The translations under genes were made by a program, and so were the position numbers. The notes below the pieces were generated by a model. The model saw only the letters and a program-made list of their open reading frames with translations, was not told the DNA's origin and ran no database searches. Source: a virus. From it: DNA of 34,320 bases. The stretch spans positions 1 through 34,320 of the IMG/VR virus record IMGVR_UViG_3300046507_000353; one strand, 5' to 3'. Position 1 is the stretch's first letter. Every line of letters begins with the position of its first letter. Shown one piece after another: positions 9,375 to 34,320 of this stretch.

Positions 9375-9884
9375 ATGTCCCTACCCCGCAAACTCAAGCA
9401 CTTCAACGTCTTCTACAACGGCGAAGAATTCTTCGGTCAGGCAACCGAAATCACGCTGCCGAAACTCGCCATGAAGGCCGAGGCGTACCGTGGCGCCGGC
9501 ATGCCCGGTGAAGTGGATATCGACCTGGGCGTTGAAAAGCTCGAGCTCGAACACAGCTACGGCGGCTTGATGTACCAGATCATCAAAGACTTCGGCATCA
9601 CGACCGTCGGCGGCGTTCTGTTGCGCTTCTCTGGCAGCTACCAGCGCGACGATACCGGCGATGTCGATGCAGTCGAGGCCATCTGCCGTGGCCGTCACAC
9701 CGAGATCGATCCCGGCGGCTCCAAGGCCGGTGATGACACCGAGTTCAAAATCAAATCATCGCTGAGCTACTACAAGCTCGCGGTCAATGGCAGCACCCTC
9801 GTTGAGATCGATATGGTCAACATGATCTACAAGGTCAACAACGTGGATCGCCTCGAACAGCACCGCCGCGCCATCGGTCGTTAA
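9375..9884 (+). CDS. FII: Tail tube protein FII
   Basis: A 169-aa major tube protein, the expected size for P2 FII. Recognisable segments are MSLPRKLKHFNVFYNGEEF, RGAGMPGEVDIDLGVEKL and the C-terminal YYKLAVNGSTLVEIDMVNM. It polymerises inside the sheath around the tape measure. AGAAGGAAA lies upstream of the ATG. It is flanked by hairpins on both sides. Confidence 0.95.
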   Translation: MSLPRKLKHFNVFYNGEEFFGQATEITLPKLAMKAEAYRGAGMPGEVDIDLGVEKLELEHSYGGLMYQIIKDFGITTVGGVLLRFSGSYQRDDTGDVDAVEAICRGRHTEIDPGGSKAGDDTEFKIKSSLSYYKLAVNGSTLVEIDMVNMIYKVNNVDRLEQHRRAIGR

Positions 9885-9890
9885 CCCACC

Positions 9891-9909
9891 GGTCGCCTCC
9901 GTGGCGACC
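9891..9909 (+). other. Intergenic hairpin between FII and E
   Basis: Perfect 7-bp arms GGTCGCC/GGCGACC flank a 5-base loop, followed by AACATTTTC. It lies 6 bases after the FII stop. It may act as a partial terminator or RNA-stability element that lowers expression of E/T relative to tube and sheath. Confidence 0.6.
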
Positions 9910-9938
9910 AACATTTTCAACACACAGGAACGCATCTC

Positions 9939-10235
9939 ATGTCTCAGAACCAGACCATTACTCTCGACACTCCGATCAAGCGCGGTGAACAGGTCATCAC
10001 CGAGGTGACCCTGCGTAAGCCATCGTCGGGCGAGCTTCGCGGCATCGCACTCACCGACCTGCTGCAGATGAACGTGACGTCCCTCACCAAGATCCTGCCA
10101 CGCCTGAGCTCGCCCGCGCTCACCGAGCAGGATGTCGGACGAATGGATCCGGCTGACCTCGTTCAGTGCGGTTCGCAGGTCGCTGATTTTTTGTTGCCGA
10201 AGGCGAGCAAGCCGGATCAATCCCCCGCCGAGTAG
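9939..10235 (+). CDS. E: Tail assembly protein E (short frame)
   Basis: A 98-aa gpE-type protein, the abundant zero-frame product of the tail chaperone pair. The start ATG 9939 has a CAGGAA site upstream. The segment RKPSSGELRGIALTDLLQMN is typical. Near its 3' end it contains a T_TTT_TTG slippery heptamer at which a fraction of ribosomes should shift to make E-E'. The pair probably shields the tape measure during tail assembly, as gpG/gpGT do in lambda. Confidence 0.9.
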   Translation: MSQNQTITLDTPIKRGEQVITEVTLRKPSSGELRGIALTDLLQMNVTSLTKILPRLSSPALTEQDVGRMDPADLVQCGSQVADFLLPKASKPDQSPAE

Positions 10236-17380: not shown

Positions 17381-20071
17381 ATGGAACAGCGCCTTTACAA
17401 AGCCGTAACCGAAAAGCTTGATCGCGAGTTCGCGTTCAAGCGTGTCGGCGATTGGTTGCAGCAGGGGGAATGCCCCAACTGCCACAAGAAGGAGCTCTAC
17501 ACCAACGCAGAACATCCGTGGGTGTTGCGCTGCAACCGCACCAACAAATGCGGGTTCGAAGAACACATCAAGGATCGTTACAGCGAGCTGTTTGAGAGCT
17601 GGTCGGATCGCGCACCGAAGTGCGCTGAGAATCCGAACGCTACCGCTGACGCTTACATGAAGGAAGGCCGAGGTTTTGATCTCAACACGATCAAAGGCTG
17701 GTACACCCAAGACAGCTACTGGGACGCTGACAAAGGTATCGGTAGCGCCACTGTTCGCTTTGCTTTGCCCGGTGTCGGTTACTGGGAGCGAATCATCGAT
17801 CGGCCGCAACGCTTCGGTAAGCGCAAGGCGACCTTCCGGGGGAACTACGGCGGCACTTGGTGGCAGGCTCCCGGCCAGTCGTTCGTTGACGTTGAAGAGA
17901 TCTGGATCGTTGAAGGAATCTTCAAGGCGATCGGCCTGCTGCACAACGGCATCACTGCGACCTCAACCCTCACGACCAACAACTATCCGAGTGAGGCTCT
18001 GGCGGCATTGGCTGCGCAGTGCGAGGCGAACGGGCGCGAACGCCCTCGTTTGGTATTTGCCTACGACGATGACCCTGCTGGGCATTCCTTCACCCGCAAA
18101 TATTGCCGCCGCGCAAAAGAGGAAGGCTGGGAGGTTGCTGCCGCTCTGTCCCCATCTCGTGGTGCGGCCAAGCGTGACTGGGACGACCTGCACCGGCTCG
18201 ACAGACTCAAGCCGAAGGATCTTGAGGATTACCGTTACCACGGCGCACTGGTGATCGCCGAGAGCGCGCAGGCTAAAGCGAACCTGATCTATTCGCGCTT
18301 CGGCACCACCCAATTCCCGCTCGACTTCGAACAGCGGCTGTATTGGTTCAAACTCGATCTCGACGCGTTCGGCAAGGTGCTGGAGAAGGTACAAGAAGAC
18401 TGCCCGGACATGACTCGCGAAGAGCAGCGGCTCGAAGCCCTGGCCGAAAGCAACTGCGTGGTTGAGATCTGCAACTGCCAGCCGACGCCGCTCTACTACA
18501 TGAAGAACGAGATTACCGACGAGTCTTGGTACTACTTCCGCGTCAACTTTCCACACAGCGGTAAACCGGAAAAAGGCACCTTCACGGCGAGCCAGCTCTC
18601 GGCACCGTCCGAGTTCAAAAAGCGCCTGCTGCACATGGGTGCCGGTGCTATCTGGACGGGCAGCGCCAGCCAACTCGACCGCCTGCTGTCGCGCTGGACT
18701 TTCAACATCAAGAAAGTCCAGACGATCGACTATATCGGGTACAGCGCCGACCACGGCTGCTACGTCTACAACGACGTGGCGATCGCGGCTGACAAGCTGG
18801 TAGAGATCAACGACGAGGACTACTTCGACATCGGCAAACTGGCAATCAAGAGCCTGTCGAAGTCGGTGAAACTCGACATCAACCCGGATCTGAAAGCCTA
18901 CAGCGAGTCGTGGTTTGACCTGATCTACCTCTGCTACGGCCCGCGCGGTTTGATTGTGCTGGCCTACTGGATGGGCACCCTGTTTGCCGAGCAGATCCGC
19001 GAACGCTTCGAGTCGTTTCCCTTCATGGAAGTTGTAGGTGAGCCCGGCGCCGGTAAGTCCACTCTGCTCGAAACTCTATGGAAACTGCTGGGCCGCAACG
19101 GCTACGAAGGTTCTGACCCGCTGAAAGGCTCCATGGTTGGCTATCTGCGCACCATGGCCCAAGTCTCGAACATGCCGGTTGTGATGCTTGAGTCCGATCG
19201 AAGCGACGATGACGAAGGCAAAGGCCGACCAAAACAGGCGTTCAACTGGGACAGTTTCAAGTCCCTCTACAACGGCGGTGCCCTGCGTACCACAGGCGTT
19301 AAAAACTCCGGCAACGACACTTACGAACCCCAGTTTCGCGCGGCACTGGTGATTAGCCAGAACGCCCCGGTTCAGGCTTCACCGGCCATCATGGAACGGA
19401 TCATCCACGTCTGGTTCGACAAGAGCCGCCAGTCCGACGAAGGCCGCGAAGGTGGCCTCGCGCTCGGTCGCATGACCGCCAGCGAAGTTAGCGGCTTTCT
19501 GGTCAAGGCCGTCACCAAAGAAGCCGAAGTCTTGAAACTGATGGATGAGCGTCAGCGCCCTTACGAAAAGGAAATTCAAGCAGCCGGGGCAAAGAACCTG
19601 CGTATTCAGAAGAACCACGCACAGCTGATGGTGCTTCTGGATGCCCTGAAGCTGGTGTGCCCGATCAGTGACGCGCAAATGAAGGAAGCCAAAGCGGTTA
19701 TCACCGAGCTGGCCCTTGAGCGTGAGCAAGCCCTTTCCCGCGAAAACCCAATGGTTGAGTCGTTCTGGGAGGCGTTCGAGTACCTCGACGGCGCCGGTGA
19801 TGACGCTGATGGTCAGCCGAAGCTCAATCACAGCCGCGACGCGGGCTTGATCGCCATCAACCTCAACCACTTCGAGCAACTGGCTGCAGAAAAGAAACAG
19901 CGCATCCCGCCGCTGACCGACCTCAAGCGCGTCCTGAAGTCCAGCCGAAACCGCCAGTTCATAGAAATTCGCGCCGTAAACAGCGCGATCAACGCCCGAC
20001 GCAACACGAACAGGGACGCGTTCCACCAAACGCTCCCGGCCACCGTGAAGTGCTGGGTCTTCAAAGCGTGA
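17381..20071 (+). CDS. Replication primase-helicase (zinc, Toprim-like and P-loop domains)
   Basis: An 896-aa replication protein. Residues 31-57 form a four-Cys zinc site (C31-x2-C34 and C51-x5-C57), like phage primases. The segment VEGIFKAIGLLHNGITATST with AYDDDPAG (~residues 174-230) is Toprim-like. The P-loop GEPGAGKS is at 553-560, with VVMLESD as Walker B, then a sensor-like ISQNAPVQ and MERIIHVWFD. It likely unwinds and primes phage DNA. No HUH/YxxxY rolling-circle motif is visible, unlike P2 gpA. It leads the replication module. Confidence 0.85.
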   Translation: MEQRLYKAVTEKLDREFAFKRVGDWLQQGECPNCHKKELYTNAEHPWVLRCNRTNKCGFEEHIKDRYSELFESWSDRAPKCAENPNATADAYMKEGRGFDLNTIKGWYTQDSYWDADKGIGSATVRFALPGVGYWERIIDRPQRFGKRKATFRGNYGGTWWQAPGQSFVDVEEIWIVEGIFKAIGLLHNGITATSTLTTNNYPSEALAALAAQCEANGRERPRLVFAYDDDPAGHSFTRKYCRRAKEEGWEVAAALSPSRGAAKRDWDDLHRLDRLKPKDLEDYRYHGALVIAESAQAKANLIYSRFGTTQFPLDFEQRLYWFKLDLDAFGKVLEKVQEDCPDMTREEQRLEALAESNCVVEICNCQPTPLYYMKNEITDESWYYFRVNFPHSGKPEKGTFTASQLSAPSEFKKRLLHMGAGAIWTGSASQLDRLLSRWTFNIKKVQTIDYIGYSADHGCYVYNDVAIAADKLVEINDEDYFDIGKLAIKSLSKSVKLDINPDLKAYSESWFDLIYLCYGPRGLIVLAYWMGTLFAEQIRERFESFPFMEVVGEPGAGKSTLLETLWKLLGRNGYEGSDPLKGSMVGYLRTMAQVSNMPVVMLESDRSDDDEGKGRPKQAFNWDSFKSLYNGGALRTTGVKNSGNDTYEPQFRAALVISQNAPVQASPAIMERIIHVWFDKSRQSDEGREGGLALGRMTASEVSGFLVKAVTKEAEVLKLMDERQRPYEKEIQAAGAKNLRIQKNHAQLMVLLDALKLVCPISDAQMKEAKAVITELALEREQALSRENPMVESFWEAFEYLDGAGDDADGQPKLNHSRDAGLIAINLNHFEQLAAEKKQRIPPLTDLKRVLKSSRNRQFIEIRAVNSAINARRNTNRDAFHQTLPATVKCWVFKA

Positions 20072-22159: not shown

Positions 22160-22404
22160 ATAACACACTGGCCAGTCTGCCTGTGCCGCTTCAGATTCGC
22201 GCCTGTGAGGCGCGTTACTGGTTGCGCAAGGGCTACACAACGCAAGAAAAGGTCGATGAACTGCGCGAGTTCTTGCACAAAAAGCGCGGCACCAACGCGA
22301 TCGAGCTGCTGATTGAGGAAATGCGCAACCAATGGCGCATTCGCAGCCTGTGGATAAATAAGCCGATCGGCGAAGCCGAGCCAGCACAGGGACAAAACAA
22401 ATGA
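22156..22404 (+). CDS. Hypothetical 82-aa protein
   Basis: A charged helical protein (RYWLRKGYTTQEKVDELREF then FLHKKRGTNAIELLIEEMRN) found between the zinc-ribbon gene and the DUF4224-like gene. It is coupled on both sides by 4-base overlaps (ATGA). No function can be assigned from the sequence. Confidence 0.75.
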   Translation: MNNTLASLPVPLQIRACEARYWLRKGYTTQEKVDELREFLHKKRGTNAIELLIEEMRNQWRIRSLWINKPIGEAEPAQGQNK

Positions 22405-22610
22405 GCAACGTCTCAGGGATTCTCAGCTTCGACGATCTGAAACAAGTCACCGGCTATCAACGCCGGTCTGACATCGAGCGTACGCTCAGAGAACAAGGTA
22501 TTCGTGTGTTCATGGGCCGGAACGGCCCGTGGACGACCACGGATCTGATCAATCAGGCCGGTGGCTATACTCCACCGACTCAGGACAGTTACAGCCCGGA
22601 AATCATCTAA
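22401..22610 (+). CDS. DUF4224-like small protein, possible recombination directionality factor
   Basis: A 69-aa protein whose residues ~7-45 (ILSFDDLKQVTGYQRRSDIE then RTLREQGIRVFMGRNGPW) match the DUF4224 pattern, a small winged-helix-like module commonly placed just before phage integrases. The stop and the integrase start overlap (TAATG). An excisionase-like role is suggested by position and size, not proven. Confidence 0.75.
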   Translation: MSNVSGILSFDDLKQVTGYQRRSDIERTLREQGIRVFMGRNGPWTTTDLINQAGGYTPPTQDSYSPEII

Positions 22611-23758
22611 TGAGACGCGGAAGAAAGCGCAAGCACAACCCGAACATTCCGGCGCACATCGATCAGGCTGCCTTACCGGCAGCCGTTTACTTCGACCAGC
22701 GTGGGGCCGGTGTCTGGTACACGTTGTTTTTCGACGAAGGCGGCAACCAGCGTCGGACGAATTTGGCCGGACCAACTACGACCCTGTCTGAACTCCACCG
22801 GCTGATGGAAGATCGCTCCGGCGTTGACCGTGACTGCCTGCGTTATCTGTGTGAGCAGTTCCACAAAAGCGATCGCTTCAAGAGCCTGAAACCCAAGACC
22901 CAGGCTGACTATGAATACTCACGCGACGTCCTGCTGACCTTTCCGACCAAGCTGAAGAAGCCGCTCGGTGAACTGGCCGTCCGCAAGTTCAATGCGCCGC
23001 TGGTTCAGCGCGTGATCGATCGTATTGCCGAAGCGGGAACGCCGTCGAAGGCGGCGCACGCACTGCGCTACCTGCGCCGGACGATGCAATGGGGCAAAAA
23101 CCGTGGCTTCGTCGAGACGAATCCTGCGCAGGGCATCGAGGCGCCGAAGGAACGTAAGCAGCGGCGTCTCCCTGAACCCGCTGCCATGAAAGCGCTTGTG
23201 AAGTACGCCCAACAGCAGGGCCAGCTCACACGCGGCCAACTTGGCGCGTGCGCGCCGTACTTGTGGTACGTGATGGAGATCAGCTACCTCTGCCGTTTGC
23301 GCGGCATCGAGACGGTGACGCTCACCGACGCGAACGAAACCCCGGACGGCGTGCTGACCAACCGACGCAAAGGCAGCCGTGACAACATCGTGCGATGGAC
23401 GCCACGTTTGCGCGCGGCCTGGGACAGCGCGAAGAAAGTGCGCTCCGACATCTGGAGCAAAAAGCGCGTGCCGGTGCCGATCGCTGCAGATCAACGCCCG
23501 ATCATCACCGCCGCTCACGGCGGCGCGTTGCAGAAGTCCAGCCTCGATACCGCTTGGCAACGGTTCATCACCCAAGCAATCAAGGCTGAGATCATCACCG
23601 CCGAGCAGCGCTTCGGCATGCACGACTTCAAGCGCCGAGGAATCACCGATACCGTCGGCACCCGAGCCGATAAGCAGGAGGCGTCCGGTCACCGTGACGA
23701 AGCGATGATGGACATTTACGACCACAGCGTGCCGATCGTGAATCCATCAGCGGAATAG
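22610..23758 (+). CDS. int: Tyrosine-family integrase
   Basis: A 382-aa site-specific recombinase. The N-terminal ~75 residues are the arm-binding part, residues ~77-165 the SAM-like core-binding part, and 185-375 the catalytic domain. Likely catalytic residues are R231 (RLRGIE), K254, H338, K341 (HDFK, an HxxK variant of HxxR), H361 (SGHRD) and nucleophile Y370 (DIYDHS). It should integrate the phage at the tRNA-Thr site through the attP at 24543-24588. ATG 22610 overlaps the previous stop; the upstream extension is inside the DUF4224-like gene. Confidence 0.95.
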   Translation: MRRGRKRKHNPNIPAHIDQAALPAAVYFDQRGAGVWYTLFFDEGGNQRRTNLAGPTTTLSELHRLMEDRSGVDRDCLRYLCEQFHKSDRFKSLKPKTQADYEYSRDVLLTFPTKLKKPLGELAVRKFNAPLVQRVIDRIAEAGTPSKAAHALRYLRRTMQWGKNRGFVETNPAQGIEAPKERKQRRLPEPAAMKALVKYAQQQGQLTRGQLGACAPYLWYVMEISYLCRLRGIETVTLTDANETPDGVLTNRRKGSRDNIVRWTPRLRAAWDSAKKVRSDIWSKKRVPVPIAADQRPIITAAHGGALQKSSLDTAWQRFITQAIKAEIITAEQRFGMHDFKRRGITDTVGTRADKQEASGHRDEAMMDIYDHSVPIVNPSAE

Positions 23759-23822: not shown

Positions 23823-23848
23823 TTCGCAACACAAACAGGATATAGGTG

Positions 23849-24088
23849 ATGACCGTAACCAACCCCCATCAGGACTGGACGACTGCCATGTGGTGGACGC
23901 TTCACCGCGATCAGGCCGCACTGCTCAATCGCCCAGGCACTCACCATAAGTCGCTGATTGAAGGCGCCAATGCGTTACATAGGGCTCATCTCATTGATGG
24001 AGATGACCTCTGCGAGCTACTTGAATTAGCCGATGCAGCTCTGGCCTATGCCGTTGAAACGCTGCTTGACGTGCGCAACGTGGAATAG
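23849..24088 (+). CDS. SOS-controlled small protein, candidate antirepressor
   Basis: An 80-aa, Leu/Ala/His-rich, mostly helical protein (HKSLIEGANALHRAHLIDGD, then LCELLELADAALAYAVETLL). No family is recognised. It is the first gene after the LexA box. Because the repressor lacks a cleavage domain, an SOS-induced protein is needed for DNA-damage induction, as with Tum in 186 or the Gifsy antirepressors. That function is inferred. GTG 23846 is an alternative start, adjacent to the ATG. Confidence 0.75.
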   Translation: MTVTNPHQDWTTAMWWTLHRDQAALLNRPGTHHKSLIEGANALHRAHLIDGDDLCELLELADAALAYAVETLLDVRNVE

Positions 24089-24097
24089 GGGTGTCGA

Positions 24098-24445
24098 ATG
24101 CAGATGCTGGTTACTCCTATGCGCTGCGAGGGGGTTGCTCTGACTCCGCAGGAACGAGGCCGTTATAACGCGATCAGGGGAGACGTTCGGGTTGGTCCCG
24201 AACAGCGTGCTGAGCTTGGTCGAAGTTCGAACGTTGCAAGGTTGTTTGATGGCTTGACCCGAAGGACGGAAGGTCTGCCCCAGCTACTGGATGTGACGTT
24301 GGTGGGAATGGGTGAGAGTGGCTTTGTGCTGAGTGGAATCGAGTTTATCGACGGGCGAGCTTATGCGCAGTCGTGGTGGTGCCGACTTCAGCAACCAAAA
24401 AAAACCATGCCGTTCGAGCCTCCAGCGGCCAAAAACCCTACGTAA
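24098..24445 (+). CDS. Hypothetical 115-aa protein, SOS operon
   Basis: A protein starting 9 bases after the SOS gene, probably in the same transcript. The pattern ALTPQERGRYNAIRGDVRVG and MGESGFVLSGIEFIDGRAYA, with a Trp-rich WWCRLQ end, suggests a soluble alpha/beta fold. No family is recognised. Its 3' end reaches the first arm site of attP. Confidence 0.7.
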   Translation: MQMLVTPMRCEGVALTPQERGRYNAIRGDVRVGPEQRAELGRSSNVARLFDGLTRRTEGLPQLLDVTLVGMGESGFVLSGIEFIDGRAYAQSWWCRLQQPKKTMPFEPPAAKNPT

Positions 24446-24659
24446 ATCAAACGCATGGCCCCGCGCCGAACAAGGCTTGCAGCGGGCCTCCTGCGTAAAA
24501 TAAAACACTGCAACCCTTTGATTTATATGATTAGTTTCCCTTACTTGTAATCAGTAGGTCTCGGGTTCGATTCCTGATGCCGGCACCATATAAAACAAGG
24601 CCTCGCAGCGATGCGGGGCCTTGTTGTTTCCGCAATACGTAAAATTCGACGTAAAATTC
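24439..24659 (+). other. attP: attP: tRNA-Thr core with flanking arm-type sites
   Basis: The core 24543-24588 is the 3' portion of a tRNA: anticodon loop CTTGTAA (anticodon TGT, Thr), then ATCAGTAGGTC, a T-arm GGGTTCGATTCC and acceptor TGCCGGC followed by ACCA. Around it are ACGTAAAAT-type sites: TACGTAAAT at 24439, GCGTAAAAT at 24493, ACGTAAAATTC at 24637 and 24649. This is the layout of integrase arm sites on both sides of the crossover. It lies beyond the integrase and SOS genes. Confidence 0.88.
24594..24625 (+). terminator. Terminator hairpin right after the attP core
   Basis: Arms AACAAGGCC/GGCCTTGTT, extended by CGCA/TGCG and a 4-base loop, are followed by GTTTC. In the integrated state it would sit downstream of the restored host tRNA-Thr and may serve as its terminator. 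Confidence 0.75.
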
Positions 24660-24725
24660 CCCTCCCTTCCTTGCTCAACCCCCCAGCGCGCAACGCCCGG
24701 CCTTCACAAAGTCATTTTCTTAAAG

Positions 24726-24770
24726 TGATATCATATGATATCGTTTCATTCGTTATCATTTCATATCATG
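24726..24770. promoter_or_regulatory. TGATATC repeats upstream of parA (operator or partition site)
   Basis: TGATATCA at 24726 and TGATATCG at 24736 form the 16-bp palindrome GATATCATATGATATC (24727-24742). Degenerate TTATCATTTCAT and ATATCATGTCAT follow up to 24775. The parA ATG is at 24788. The same octamer recurs before the partner gene. Operator or parS-like use by the partner protein is inferred. Confidence 0.65.
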
Positions 24771-24787
24771 TCATTACGGAGAGAATC

Positions 24788-25462
24788 ATGATTCTGTTGA
24801 TCGGCTGTGAGAAAGGCGGCGCGGGCAAAAGCAACATAGGGGGAAACCTCGCGGTATGGGCGGCACTAAAAGGCGTGGACACAGTGGTTATGGATGCTGA
24901 CCCGCAAGCCACTGCCGCCAAGTTCATTGCACGGAGGAACGACGCCGGGCTACCGGTCGTGCATTGCGTTCAAAAGACTGGAGACGTTTTCGCTACGGCC
25001 AAGGATCTCGCCCAGCGTTATCAGCTCGTAATCATTGATGCGGGTGGTCGCGACAGCAAAGAACTGCGCACGGCGATGGTCGCGGCGGATCGGATGATCA
25101 TCCCTACTCAGGCCAGCCAAGCAGACCTTGAAACGCTTCCGCACCTCGACGAACTGATCGGGTTGGCACAGGGCATCAATCCCAACCTCGAAGCCTTTGC
25201 TGTTTTGTCACGCGCACCAACCAATCCAGTGATCAATGAAGTCGCCGACGCCAAAACCCTACTCGTAGAGTTCGAGAGCTTCACCCTGGCCCGATCGATC
25301 ATTCGCGACCGCAAGATCTACCGGGACGCATGGTTGCAAGGTAAAGGCGTTGTGGAGATGGGCAACAGCAAGGCACGAGCAGAAATCCAGTTGCTCGCCG
25401 ACGAGATGTTCCCCCACCTACTGCGCCACGAGAGCGCGAAACCCACAGCACTCGCACAGTGA
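24788..25462 (+). CDS. parA: ParA-family partition ATPase
   Basis: A 224-aa deviant Walker-A ATPase. KGGAGKS is residues 9-15, VVMDADPQATAA is the switch I region (around residue 40), and LVIIDAGGRDSKELRTAM is switch II. There is no N-terminal DNA-binding extension, so it is of the short type Ib class (ParF-like). Such proteins segregate low-copy plasmids or excised mobile elements. GGAGAG precedes ATG 24788. The small downstream gene is its likely partner. The 24611 extension runs through attP and is rejected. Confidence 0.9.
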   Translation: MILLIGCEKGGAGKSNIGGNLAVWAALKGVDTVVMDADPQATAAKFIARRNDAGLPVVHCVQKTGDVFATAKDLAQRYQLVIIDAGGRDSKELRTAMVAADRMIIPTQASQADLETLPHLDELIGLAQGINPNLEAFAVLSRAPTNPVINEVADAKTLLVEFESFTLARSIIRDRKIYRDAWLQGKGVVEMGNSKARAEIQLLADEMFPHLLRHESAKPTALAQ

Positions 25463-25471
25463 CAAACAGAG

Positions 25472-25504
25472 CGATATCATTTGATATCGTTGCATCTGAT
25501 ATCA
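25472..25504. promoter_or_regulatory. TGATATC repeats upstream of the ParA partner gene
   Basis: Arms CGATATCA/TGATATCG (25472-25489) flank a TT centre, then TGATATCA at 25497-25504. The octamer is the same as the one before parA, at 10- and 15-base spacing. The partner's ATG is 16 bases later, with AAAGGA between. Confidence 0.65.
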
Positions 25505-25520
25505 AACGAAAGGAACGGAT

Positions 25521-25823
25521 ATGGCATTCGACGTTAAACCCAAGAGGCCACCGGTAGACCCTGATGCGCTGGCTGCATTTGCGGAAGGTGCCGACACTCA
25601 CACAACGGCGCCGGTAGCTCCTGCTGCCGCCGCTCCGATCGGCAAAGTCGAGCAAGAAGGCAAGCTCACCGAAAGCATGTTGTTTCGCTGCTCGAAAGCG
25701 ACCTACGACGAGTTCGCGTTTGTGTACGAGAACACCAACGTGAAGAGCAAACAGAAGTTGCTGGAGTCGATCCTGCTGCCGGAGATCCAGCGGCGCGCCG
25801 CTGAAATCCGATCGAAGCAGTGA
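25521..25823 (+). CDS. Small ParA partner, possible ribbon-helix-helix centromere-binding protein
   Basis: A 100-aa protein. The first ~45 residues are flexible (Pro/Ala-rich, TTAPVAPAAAAPIGK), and the last ~50 (KLTESMLFRCSKATYDEFAF then VYENTNVKSKQKLLESILLP) have a strand-helix-helix outline like ParG or other RHH centromere-binding proteins. A flexible N-terminus plus C-terminal RHH is the usual type Ib design. It follows parA and is preceded by TGATATC repeats. It could instead be a regulator only. Confidence 0.72.
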   Translation: MAFDVKPKRPPVDPDALAAFAEGADTHTTAPVAPAAAAPIGKVEQEGKLTESMLFRCSKATYDEFAFVYENTNVKSKQKLLESILLPEIQRRAAEIRSKQ

Positions 25824-25841: not shown

Positions 25842-25868
25842 AAGCCCCGCGCGATCGGGGCTTTTTTT
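25842..25868 (+). terminator. Intrinsic terminator after the par genes
   Basis: Stem AAGCCCCG/CGGGGCTT with a loop of 6 and a following run of T residues, 19 bases after the partner gene's stop. Confidence 0.9.
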
Positions 25869-25964: not shown

Positions 25965-26238
25965 GGTAACTGCGGTCACGAGCCTTTGAGACGCCCGTCA
26001 AGCCCACGATCCACAAGCGTTTAACACAATTGAATAAAGGTAATTGAATAGTAATTATGTAGTAATCGTATTACCTTTTATAAGAGTTAGTTACTTAATA
26101 TGAATAACCCTTATAAATCAAGCACTTACATGCAGATTACCAAATCAGTTACCCCCAATTACGCATATAAGGTAATCAGAAAACTTCAATAAAAACAAAG
26201 GGTTGAGCCATATAAACACCGCGATGACTTCGGTTACC
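25965..26238. repeat. Scattered GGTAA(T/C) repeats in an AT-rich zone, possible replication origin
   Basis: GGTAAY occurs at 25965(+), 26039(+), 26070(-), 26136(-), 26148(-), 26171(+) and 26233(-), with AAAGGTAAT/ATTACCTTT as a 9-bp inverted pair at 26036-26044 and 26070-26078. Degenerate AGTAAT copies lie at 26050 and 26061. The surrounding ~200 bases are much more AT-rich than any other part of the window. Spacing is irregular, unlike classical plasmid iterons. Confidence 0.5.
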
Positions 26239-26410
26239 CGTTTCCCAGAATAGACCCTCTACCTGACCTCGCAGAAAGCTGCACTGCAAGCGCTTGGGCG
26301 CATGATTCTGCAAGTTTTTTAACCCCCTGACATCCCCTTCGAAGCCCACGGCGCACGGGGCCTCCACCGGAGTCATGCAGGTGCATATTTAGTGGCACGA
26401 AAGGCGCGCA

Positions 26411-26429
26411 GGCGTGGCGGGGTAACGAG
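26411..26429. other. cos: Candidate cos site (packaging and linear ends)
   Basis: GGCGTGGCGGGGTAACGAG matches the P2 cohesive-end sequence GGCGAGGCGGGGAAAGCAC, quoted from memory, at 14 of 19 positions, including GGCG and GGCGGGG. It is in the expected position, just beyond the 3' end of gene Q. Cutting here gives the P2 order Q-P-O-N-M-L. Confidence 0.78.
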
Positions 26430-32848: not shown

Positions 32849-33223
32849 ATGGCCGAGCCAGTCTCCACCAGCTATGCAACAGGATCTGTCGTCGCCGTCG
32901 GATCGCTATCCCTGCTCCCCGGAGTTGAGTCAGCGGTAATCCTTGGTTCGTTCGCCGGGGCGGTCGTCTTCGTCCTGGCATCAACCGATCTCACCAACGC
33001 AAAAAAGGTGGGGTTCTTCGTTATCAGTTTTATCGCCGGAATCCTTTGCGCCTCGATTGCCGCCGCATTGCTGACGAGCCTCCTGCCGGATCGCATCGAA
33101 GTCAGCGAAGGCGTAGGCGCGCTGGTTGCCGCCGCAGTTGCGGTTCGACTTCTGCTCTGGGTGATCAAGATCTCCGAAGACCCAGGCGCGTTACTGGCTC
33201 GATTCAAAGGAGACAGGAAATGA
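32849..33223 (+). CDS. Holin-like membrane protein (first of two)
   Basis: A 124-aa protein with about three hydrophobic segments (residues ~10-40, 53-77 and 88-107) and a charged C-terminus (DPGALLARFKGDRK). This is typical of Pseudomonas phage putative holins, which release the endolysin or control lysis timing. It sits in the place of the P2 Y holin. The stop overlaps the next start by ATGA. Confidence 0.78.
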   Translation: MAEPVSTSYATGSVVAVGSLSLLPGVESAVILGSFAGAVVFVLASTDLTNAKKVGFFVISFIAGILCASIAAALLTSLLPDRIEVSEGVGALVAAAVAVRLLLWVIKISEDPGALLARFKGDRK

Positions 33224-33540
33224 ACTACCTGCCGCTGATCAACAGTGTTTGCTGCGGCCTGATCGCGCTGTCGCTGATGTTTTTCAGCCGCAAGGGCGCC
33301 ACGCATCGGCCATTTGCCTCACTGCTCGCCTACACCGTCACCGTCGCGGCAGGTTCGGTTCCGATCCTTCACATCATCGGTCGGCCATACCTGCCTGACC
33401 CGCCTCAGCTCGTTCTCAACCTTCTGCTTTGCATCGCCTTGATCTCCGTTCGCGGCAACGTGATCGAGCTGTGCAGGCCAAGCAATTCAATGATGGATAA
33501 CCGATTCGTTCGACTGTTACGGAGAGAGACATGGTTCTGA
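33220..33540 (+). CDS. Holin-like membrane protein (second of two)
   Basis: A 106-aa protein with three membrane segments (residues ~5-22, 33-53 and 64-79) and a basic C-terminus (DNRFVRLLRRETWF), resembling 3-TM phage holins. With the upstream gene it may form a holin/antiholin pair. AAGGAGACAGGAAA lies upstream, and the 3' end overlaps the endolysin start by 10 bases. Confidence 0.78.
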   Translation: MNYLPLINSVCCGLIALSLMFFSRKGATHRPFASLLAYTVTVAAGSVPILHIIGRPYLPDPPQLVLNLLLCIALISVRGNVIELCRPSNSMMDNRFVRLLRRETWF

Positions 33541-34320
33541 AAATGGATAGCCACGGGAGCGACGTTGCCGAGCTGCAACGACTCTTAAACAAGCGCGGCG
33601 CGCAGATCTCGGTTGATGGATGGTTCGGCACCTCCACCCAAGCAGCGGTCATCGAGCTGCAGCGCGGCGCCGGACTGGTGGCTGACGGCATTGCCGGAGC
33701 AAAAACCATGGCTGTGCTGACCGGCAAACCTTCGGTTCGTGTTCTCCGGGAGGCTGATCTACAGGCTGCGGCTGATCGTTTGGAGCTGCCGCTGATCAGT
33801 GTCAAGACGGTCAATTCGGTCGAAAGTAACGGATGTGGCTTCCTGCCGGACGGACGCCCCGTGATCCTGTTCGAGCGTCACGTTTTCTACCAGCGCCTGA
33901 AAGCCAAAGGCGCCGACGTTGAAACTCTCTCGGCTCGTTTCCCGAACCTCTGCAACCCGAAGCGCGGCGGTTATACGGGCGGCGCCGGTGAGTGGTCTCG
34001 CCTGAGAAACGCACGCCTGATCATCGGTGACGCTTTCGCTGATATCGCCTACGAGGCTTGCAGCTGGGGCCTGTTTCAGATCATGGGTTACCACTGGGAG
34101 AGCCTGGACTACGGCAGCGCCGCTCAATTCGTCGAGAAGATGAGTGAAAGCGAAGGTGCGCAGCTTGACGCCTTCGTCGCCTTCATCGCAGCAGATCCAG
34201 CGCTACACAAGTCGCTGAAAGCCCGCAAATGGGCAGAGTTCGCCAAGCTCTACAACGGCCCGGCCTACAAGGAAAACCTCTACGACGCCAAGCTCGCTCA
34301 GGCCTATGAGCGTTTCGAGA
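33531..34320 (+). CDS. Endolysin: peptidoglycan-binding domain plus N-acetylmuramidase-like domain (continues at 1-141)
   Basis: Joined across the circle it is 267 aa. Residues ~8-65 are a peptidoglycan-binding module (GSDVAELQRLLNKRGAQISV, VDGWFGTSTQAAVIELQR). Residues ~90-265 are a DUF3380/N-acetylmuramidase-type catalytic domain: VNSVESNGCGFLPDGRPVIL with the catalytic Glu likely in VESNG, FERHVFYQ, and SWGLFQIMGYHW. Modular endolysins like this are common in Pseudomonas phages. It lies downstream of the holins. Window end cuts it in frame. Confidence 0.92.
   Translation, partial: MVLKMDSHGSDVAELQRLLNKRGAQISVDGWFGTSTQAAVIELQRGAGLVADGIAGAKTMAVLTGKPSVRVLREADLQAAADRLELPLISVKTVNSVESNGCGFLPDGRPVILFERHVFYQRLKAKGADVETLSARFPNLCNPKRGGYTGGAGEWSRLRNARLIIGDAFADIAYEACSWGLFQIMGYHWESLDYGSAAQFVEKMSESEGAQLDAFVAFIAADPALHKSLKARKWAEFAKLYNGPAYKENLYDAKLAQAYERFE
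34194..34320. repeat. Terminal direct repeat, right copy
   Basis: Identical to 1-127. See that entry. Confidence 0.93.

Follow-up and report, generated by a model that had tools for sequence, protein, structure and literature searches.

Phages with P2-like structural genes and a partition ATPase have been described previously in the form of Burkholderia phage KS14, a plasmid prophage that encodes ParA and no tyrosine integrase (PMC3091744). Similarly, the cluster A mycobacteriophages, RedRock among them, carry a parABS cassette in the place of the integration cassette, such that each phage has one or the other (PMC7157519). Outside phages, the SrpMRC system stabilises the circular form of the SXT/R391 ICEs, which are normally chromosomal (PMC4489591). 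Phages are usually classed either as integrating prophages or as phage-plasmids, and a 2026 typing study describes the latter as typically being without an integrase, with those that are integrated taken as defective (PMC12977533).

The locus analysed here, within a viral DNA record of 34,320 nucleotides (the window), resembles each of these systems in part. It has in common with KS14, and also with FLC5 and FLC10, P2-like structural genes, a short ParA with a small gene after it, and repeats preceding parA, which in KS14 are of TTGATATCAA type at 11-bp spacing; KS14 differs in its missing tyrosine integrase, in possessing a Rep gene, and in its ParA, which is only 31% identical. From TP228 ParF-ParG-parH, and the Burkholderia and Acinetobacter plasmid relatives of that system, the locus is familiar in its ParA size and type, gene order, upstream repeats, and small partner with a flexible N-terminus, but it is phage-borne, its repeat is TGATATCA rather than ACTC-like, and the C-terminus of its partner is not demonstrably related. 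As in the mycobacteriophages, a partition cassette resides in a temperate phage, yet here both cassettes stand side by side. SrpMRC differs in being actin-type (type II), and in belonging to an ICE rather than a phage.

Results

Phage genome and integration module

The structural genes are of P2 type, with portal, terminase, scaffold, capsid and tail genes accompanied by cos, and the phage is on this gene content classified as a cos-type P2-like phage (Peduoviridae). The coordinates of the non-structural features are collected in Table 1. Because of an exact 127-bp terminal repeat (1-127 being the same as 34194-34320), the record represents a closed circle of 34,193 bp; this is likewise the case for L007, an IMG/VR contig belonging to the lineage of the window phage, in which the integrase is 97.7%, the primase 96.2%, ParA 94% and the partner 88% identical, meaning two independent closed circles carry the cassette. 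As the contig ends are far from cos, the assembled molecule must have been circular or concatemeric, and such assemblies are also expected from ordinary lytic DNA.

Table 1. Features of the integration module, partition cassette and neighbouring replication region, in window coordinates
Feature	Position	Strand	Details
Primase, phrog_1139 family (Toprim)	17381..20071	+	Probable replication protein
Excisionase (phrog_1266)	22401..22610	+	
Tyrosine integrase	22529..23758	+	68.7% identical to the integrase of Pseudomonas phage Dobby
attP core	24543..24589	+	3' half of a tRNA-Thr(TGT) gene
Two ACGTAAAATTC direct repeats	24637..24660	+	Located on the side of the core facing ParA; putative arm sites for the integrase, with counterparts at 24437-24448 and 24493-24504
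Upstream array of TGATATCA-like octamers	24726..24768	.	Putative centromere/operator of parA; sites at 24726, 24736 and 24761, weaker at 24751 and 24766; spacing in multiples of 5 bp
Leader with repeats, 5' of parA	24726-24787	.	Not coding for ParA
parA, deviant Walker ATPase of short type Ib (ParF-like)	24788..25462	+	224 aa; assigned on profile matches, best solved structures, alignment and dN/dS of 0.07 against L007
Intergenic array	25472..25504	.	Putative operator/centromere of the partner gene; sites at 25472, 25482 and 25497; spacing 10 and 15 bp
Partner gene, probable centromere-binding protein	25521..25823	+	100 aa; N-terminal FAxGAD motif, linker, predicted helix-helix C-terminus
Terminator-like hairpin	25842..25868	+	3' of the partner gene
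AT-rich GGTAAY/RTTACC array	25965..26240	.	Candidate origin, between partner gene and cos
cos-like motif GGCGTGGCGGGG	26411..26422	+	Common to L007, L016 and Dobby; opens the Smp131 record

The complete integrase and attP reported in the first-pass annotation are both real, and are joined by an excisionase, with ACGTAAA-type repeats found on both flanks of the attP core. Among the window genes scanned, none was recognisable as a plasmid-type Rep initiator. Relative to L007, the window has an insertion between integrase and attP (23846-24445), and an ORF at 24098-24445 (phrog_5560) resembles, by eye, an ORF lying across the att core in L059 and L134, suggesting it may be a mobile passenger gene of the interval.

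The phages Dobby, Sirocco and Smp131 are likewise P2-like, with the same primase family, an integrase and cos, but are without the ParA cassette. The GGTAAY/RTTACC array is found beside cos in the cassette carriers L007 (10544-10818), L016 (11117-11385) and L167 (1568-1843), and the array comparison, which covered Dobby (L035; about 360-660) and Smp131 (L036; about 33054-33354), located it in both. It thereby accompanies the phrog_1139 primase, and is missing from KL3, which has another primase. The array was consequently rejected as a component of the partition system, as Dobby and Smp131 have it in the absence of ParA, and KL3 has neither; rather, it is a candidate origin for the primase, with the cassette adjoining it. 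In L134, which is without ParA, repeats of AGTGATAT/ATATCACT occupy the corresponding place.

A type Ib ParA and its partner

Type Ib ParA proteins are defined by a deviant Walker A motif with a signature lysine, a length of about 190-310 aa, and the absence of an N-terminal HTH domain. The window protein, which starts MILLIGCEKGGAGKS, has the sequence characteristics of this ParF-like type, in agreement with its first description: it is of the appropriate size, KGGAGKS begins at residue 9, and its best solved structures are those of ParF/ParA from TP228 (5u1g, 4dzz). It matches phrog_164 ("ParA-like partition protein") at 3e-41, and Pfam AAA_31, CbiA and MipZ above cut-off; its NCBIfam ParA_partition score of 127.8 is under the 180-bit cut-off. 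Across 14 aligned relatives, no variation occurs at K9 and K14, the signature and catalytic lysines, or at the aspartates D36 and D38. Relatives occur on thousands of plasmids, the best being 64% identical on Burkholderia plasmids, with a small gene following in each case. Comparing the window with L007, dN/dS was 0.07 for ParA and 0.28 for the partner, and hence both genes are under purifying selection.

The partner gene starts 58 bp after parA, such that a small gene, putatively for a centromere-binding protein, lies directly downstream, as in other type Ib cassettes, and it is also present in L007, L016, L166 and L167. By sequence, the partner resembled nothing in Pfam, NCBIfam, PHROGs, phages or plasmids. 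An F-x-x-x-A motif, contained within FAxGAD, is common to this protein and the small proteins encoded after related ParAs of both plasmids and phages. As a group, the cognate partners of related ParAs match ParG at 3e-5, and the KS14 partner passes the Pfam RHH_1 cut-off. A mixed profile of 12 partners matched CopG and ParG weakly (E 0.05-0.08), and profile comparison aligned the window partner with ParG-like partners at the N-terminal motif only, and not in the C-terminus. Two AlphaFold monomer models, both weak, being built from three and five sequences, predicted two helices (pLDDT about 70-79) and no strand, with low pLDDT at residues 26-55; comparison of the first model by VIA-align returned only ZntR, at an uninformative Z of 3.1.

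Hence the partner is predicted to have the flexible N-terminus of ParG, with a conserved motif, and is likely by context to adopt an RHH fold, this being the strength appropriate to weak profiles and models of the protein itself combined with the ParG match of its cognate counterparts. Of the strand-helix-helix C-terminus originally proposed, which is plausible from sequence, the structure prediction that had been suggested as a check recovered the two helices but not the strand, in models limited to monomers. The span initially assigned to the module (24726-25823) does encompass a real module, but begins with the leader rather than with parA itself.

Repeat arrays preceding both genes

Counting octamers within one mismatch of TGATATCA, there are six, rather than the five noted in the original reading of both leaders, arranged as two triplets with one before each cassette gene. 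Three such octamers within 60 bp were found in 0/200 Markov shuffles of the whole window, the shuffle maximum being two, and the clustering in each leader corresponds to P <=0.0005. Each gene is therefore preceded by a repeat array beyond chance expectation, which constitutes a putative centromere/operator. The arrays of L007 have the same positions and spacing, and the parA leaders of L016, L167 and L166 also contain TGATATCA-like sites, with conservation looser than in L007; the arrays are absent from the ParA-less KL3, Dobby and Smp131.

In L007, parA is separated from the second array by an inserted 88-aa ORF of no known family (9774-10040). As this array, with its spacing unaltered, remains with the partner gene, it may be the partner's own control site. 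A pair of the sites ahead of the partner gene doubles as an inverted repeat (25472-25489), reported on the minus strand by the terminator scan, that probably reflects just the palindromic nature of the sites. The value of TGATATCA clusters alone as a diagnostic for ParA was weakened by 2/41 control attachment loci having three loose matches; in one of these, L134, the matches are inside an apparent origin array of AGTGATAT type.

Integrated relatives and rarity of the cassette

Four relatives have ParA, partner and similar sites, with ParA identities of 94% (L007), 80% (L166), 71% (L016, partner 66%) and 69% (L167). L016 comes from the MAG of a groundwater gammaproteobacterium, on a contig of 127.8 kb. 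Here, a copy of a tRNA-Thr(CGT) 3' end comes after host genes encoding HDOD, DUF1631 and Cu/Zn superoxide dismutase domains, and leads into ParA, the partner, a GGTAAC array, cos and P2 genes. The contig stops in the tape-measure gene, within which a second contig of the same MAG begins, passing in turn tail genes, a repressor, the primase (55-56%) and a tyrosine integrase before it reaches an intact tRNA-Thr(CGT), beyond which the sequence continues. The two tRNA-Thr(CGT) copies of this L016/L034 prophage are identical over 47 bp. The cassette is therefore just inside one end of an integrated prophage, with the usual caution regarding MAG binning. A search of the L016 genome did not return the window integrase; the prophage there has a different tyrosine integrase and an att core in the opposite orientation, and so the cassette can be paired with more than one integrase.

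Scanning viral contigs with the tRNA-Thr core identified two more members of the window lineage, L144 (integrase 98.5%) and L058 (97.6%). The sequence beyond the core in L144 recurs at that position in L083 and L138, which are two unrelated prophages, and hence is most likely host DNA; the corresponding flank of L058 is common to L094. These are attR-type junctions only, from records in which the other ends, and the stretch corresponding to the cassette, are missing. Judged by such attL/attR host junctions, which were seen in relatives and not in the window phage itself, the lineage integrates, upholding the initial view that the cassette sits in an integrating P2-like phage.

No ParA relative was present in the stretch read at any of 119 other loci with the tRNA-Thr(TGT) core, 21 of which were left junctions with arm repeats, nor did three sets of Pseudomonadales genomes contain a further carrier with a close partner. 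Hence the cassette is a rare and occasional passenger cargo that such phages do not need. It was considered whether the cassette might instead be host DNA beside the attachment site, which is refuted by the window and L007 closing into circles with both cassette and attP inside, and further countered by L016 and L167, in which the cassette runs directly into P2 genes. Nor can L167 be regarded as an integrase-free form, as the record ends before the early region expected to hold the integrase, making its negative result uninformative. At L166 7245-9223, where the partner is 61% identical, the element matches none of the P2-type queries, and a tRNA-Asn gene is about 970 bp away; it is possibly another integrative element carrying the cassette.

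Discussion

The ParA type, gene order, partner size, N-terminal motif and repeat arrays bear out the initial recognition of a plasmid-type partition cassette. That P2 itself has no need of partition, as was argued at the time, is true, but ParA in a P2-like phage already has a precedent in KS14. Instead, it is partition together with an integrase in one phage that is unusual: integration and partition coexist in the window phage, since the integrase, excisionase, attP and integrated relatives are found beside the cassette. In the literature searched, of which coverage was partial, there was no description of this combination in a P2-like phage. With its integrase, excisionase and attP all complete, the window phage falls outside the definition of phage-plasmids as integrase-free and episomal.

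On a fine balance, 24726-25823 probably constitutes an entire type Ib (ParF/ParG-type) partition cassette, which occupies the attP-cos interval as accessory cargo and stabilises the phage circle. The observed part of this explanation consists of the ParA type, the gene order, the conserved arrays, and the relative of the cassette in an integrated prophage. Binding, repression and segregation are understood for this family from the ParF-ParG system of TP228. By analogy, dimers of the partner would bind the TGATATCA arrays in both leaders, marking the DNA, and the arrays may serve as both centromere and operator, such that both genes are autorepressed. Nucleoid-bound ParA-ATP would then move and separate copies of the phage circle, once it has excised and been replicated from the adjoining primase origin. 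The cassette would be nearly neutral while the prophage is integrated, and would matter once the prophage has excised, or between infection and integration, when one or few circles are present and could be lost as the cell divides. The prophage would thereby be lost less often during its time outside the chromosome, an effect that SrpMRC has for SXT/R391 ICEs. Hence the window phage probably guards its free circular DNA from loss at cell division.

It is rather doubtful that this extends to two ways of lysogeny, with the phage switching between integration at tRNA-Thr and an actively partitioned circular plasmid. A stronger form, in which the partitioned plasmid is the frequent or main state of the prophage, with integration as the alternative and the integrase as a fallback, is unlikely. 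KS14, also P2-like with ParA, is indeed a plasmid prophage (PMC3091744), the window and L007 were assembled as closed circles with attP intact and ends away from cos, and the phage has its own primase and candidate origin near the cassette. Yet integrated junctions were found both for near-identical integrases and for a cassette carrier, no plasmid record in PLSDB contained the window phage, and the plasmid-type Rep that is next to ParA in KS14 has no recognised counterpart among the scanned genes.

The rarity and patchiness of the cassette, the extra gene separating parA from the partner in L007, and the higher dN/dS of the partner could alternatively indicate cargo from a plasmid that has a regulatory role or is a relic, with ParA and the partner controlling only their own or neighbouring promoters and having no part in partition. 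The intact catalytic motifs of ParA, and the retention of both genes and both arrays in carriers with ParA as divergent as 69%, make this, if anything, slightly less likely again. More improbable still is a competition device, whereby the arrays and partner cause incompatibility that excludes plasmids or phages with the same centromere from the lysogen. The same ParA family and site types do occur on plasmids and KS14, and the attP-cos interval holds varied cargo, but a binding protein and its sites would suffice for this purpose, leaving the conservation of ParA unexplained, and the search for a co-resident plasmid with this partner was negative.

A small phage with an intact integrase and an intact partition cassette, and with an integrated relative in a bacterial genome, blurs the border between integrating prophages and phage-plasmids, as SrpMRC did for ICEs. 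The window phage offers a means to test directly whether loss of the excised state is something prophages guard against.
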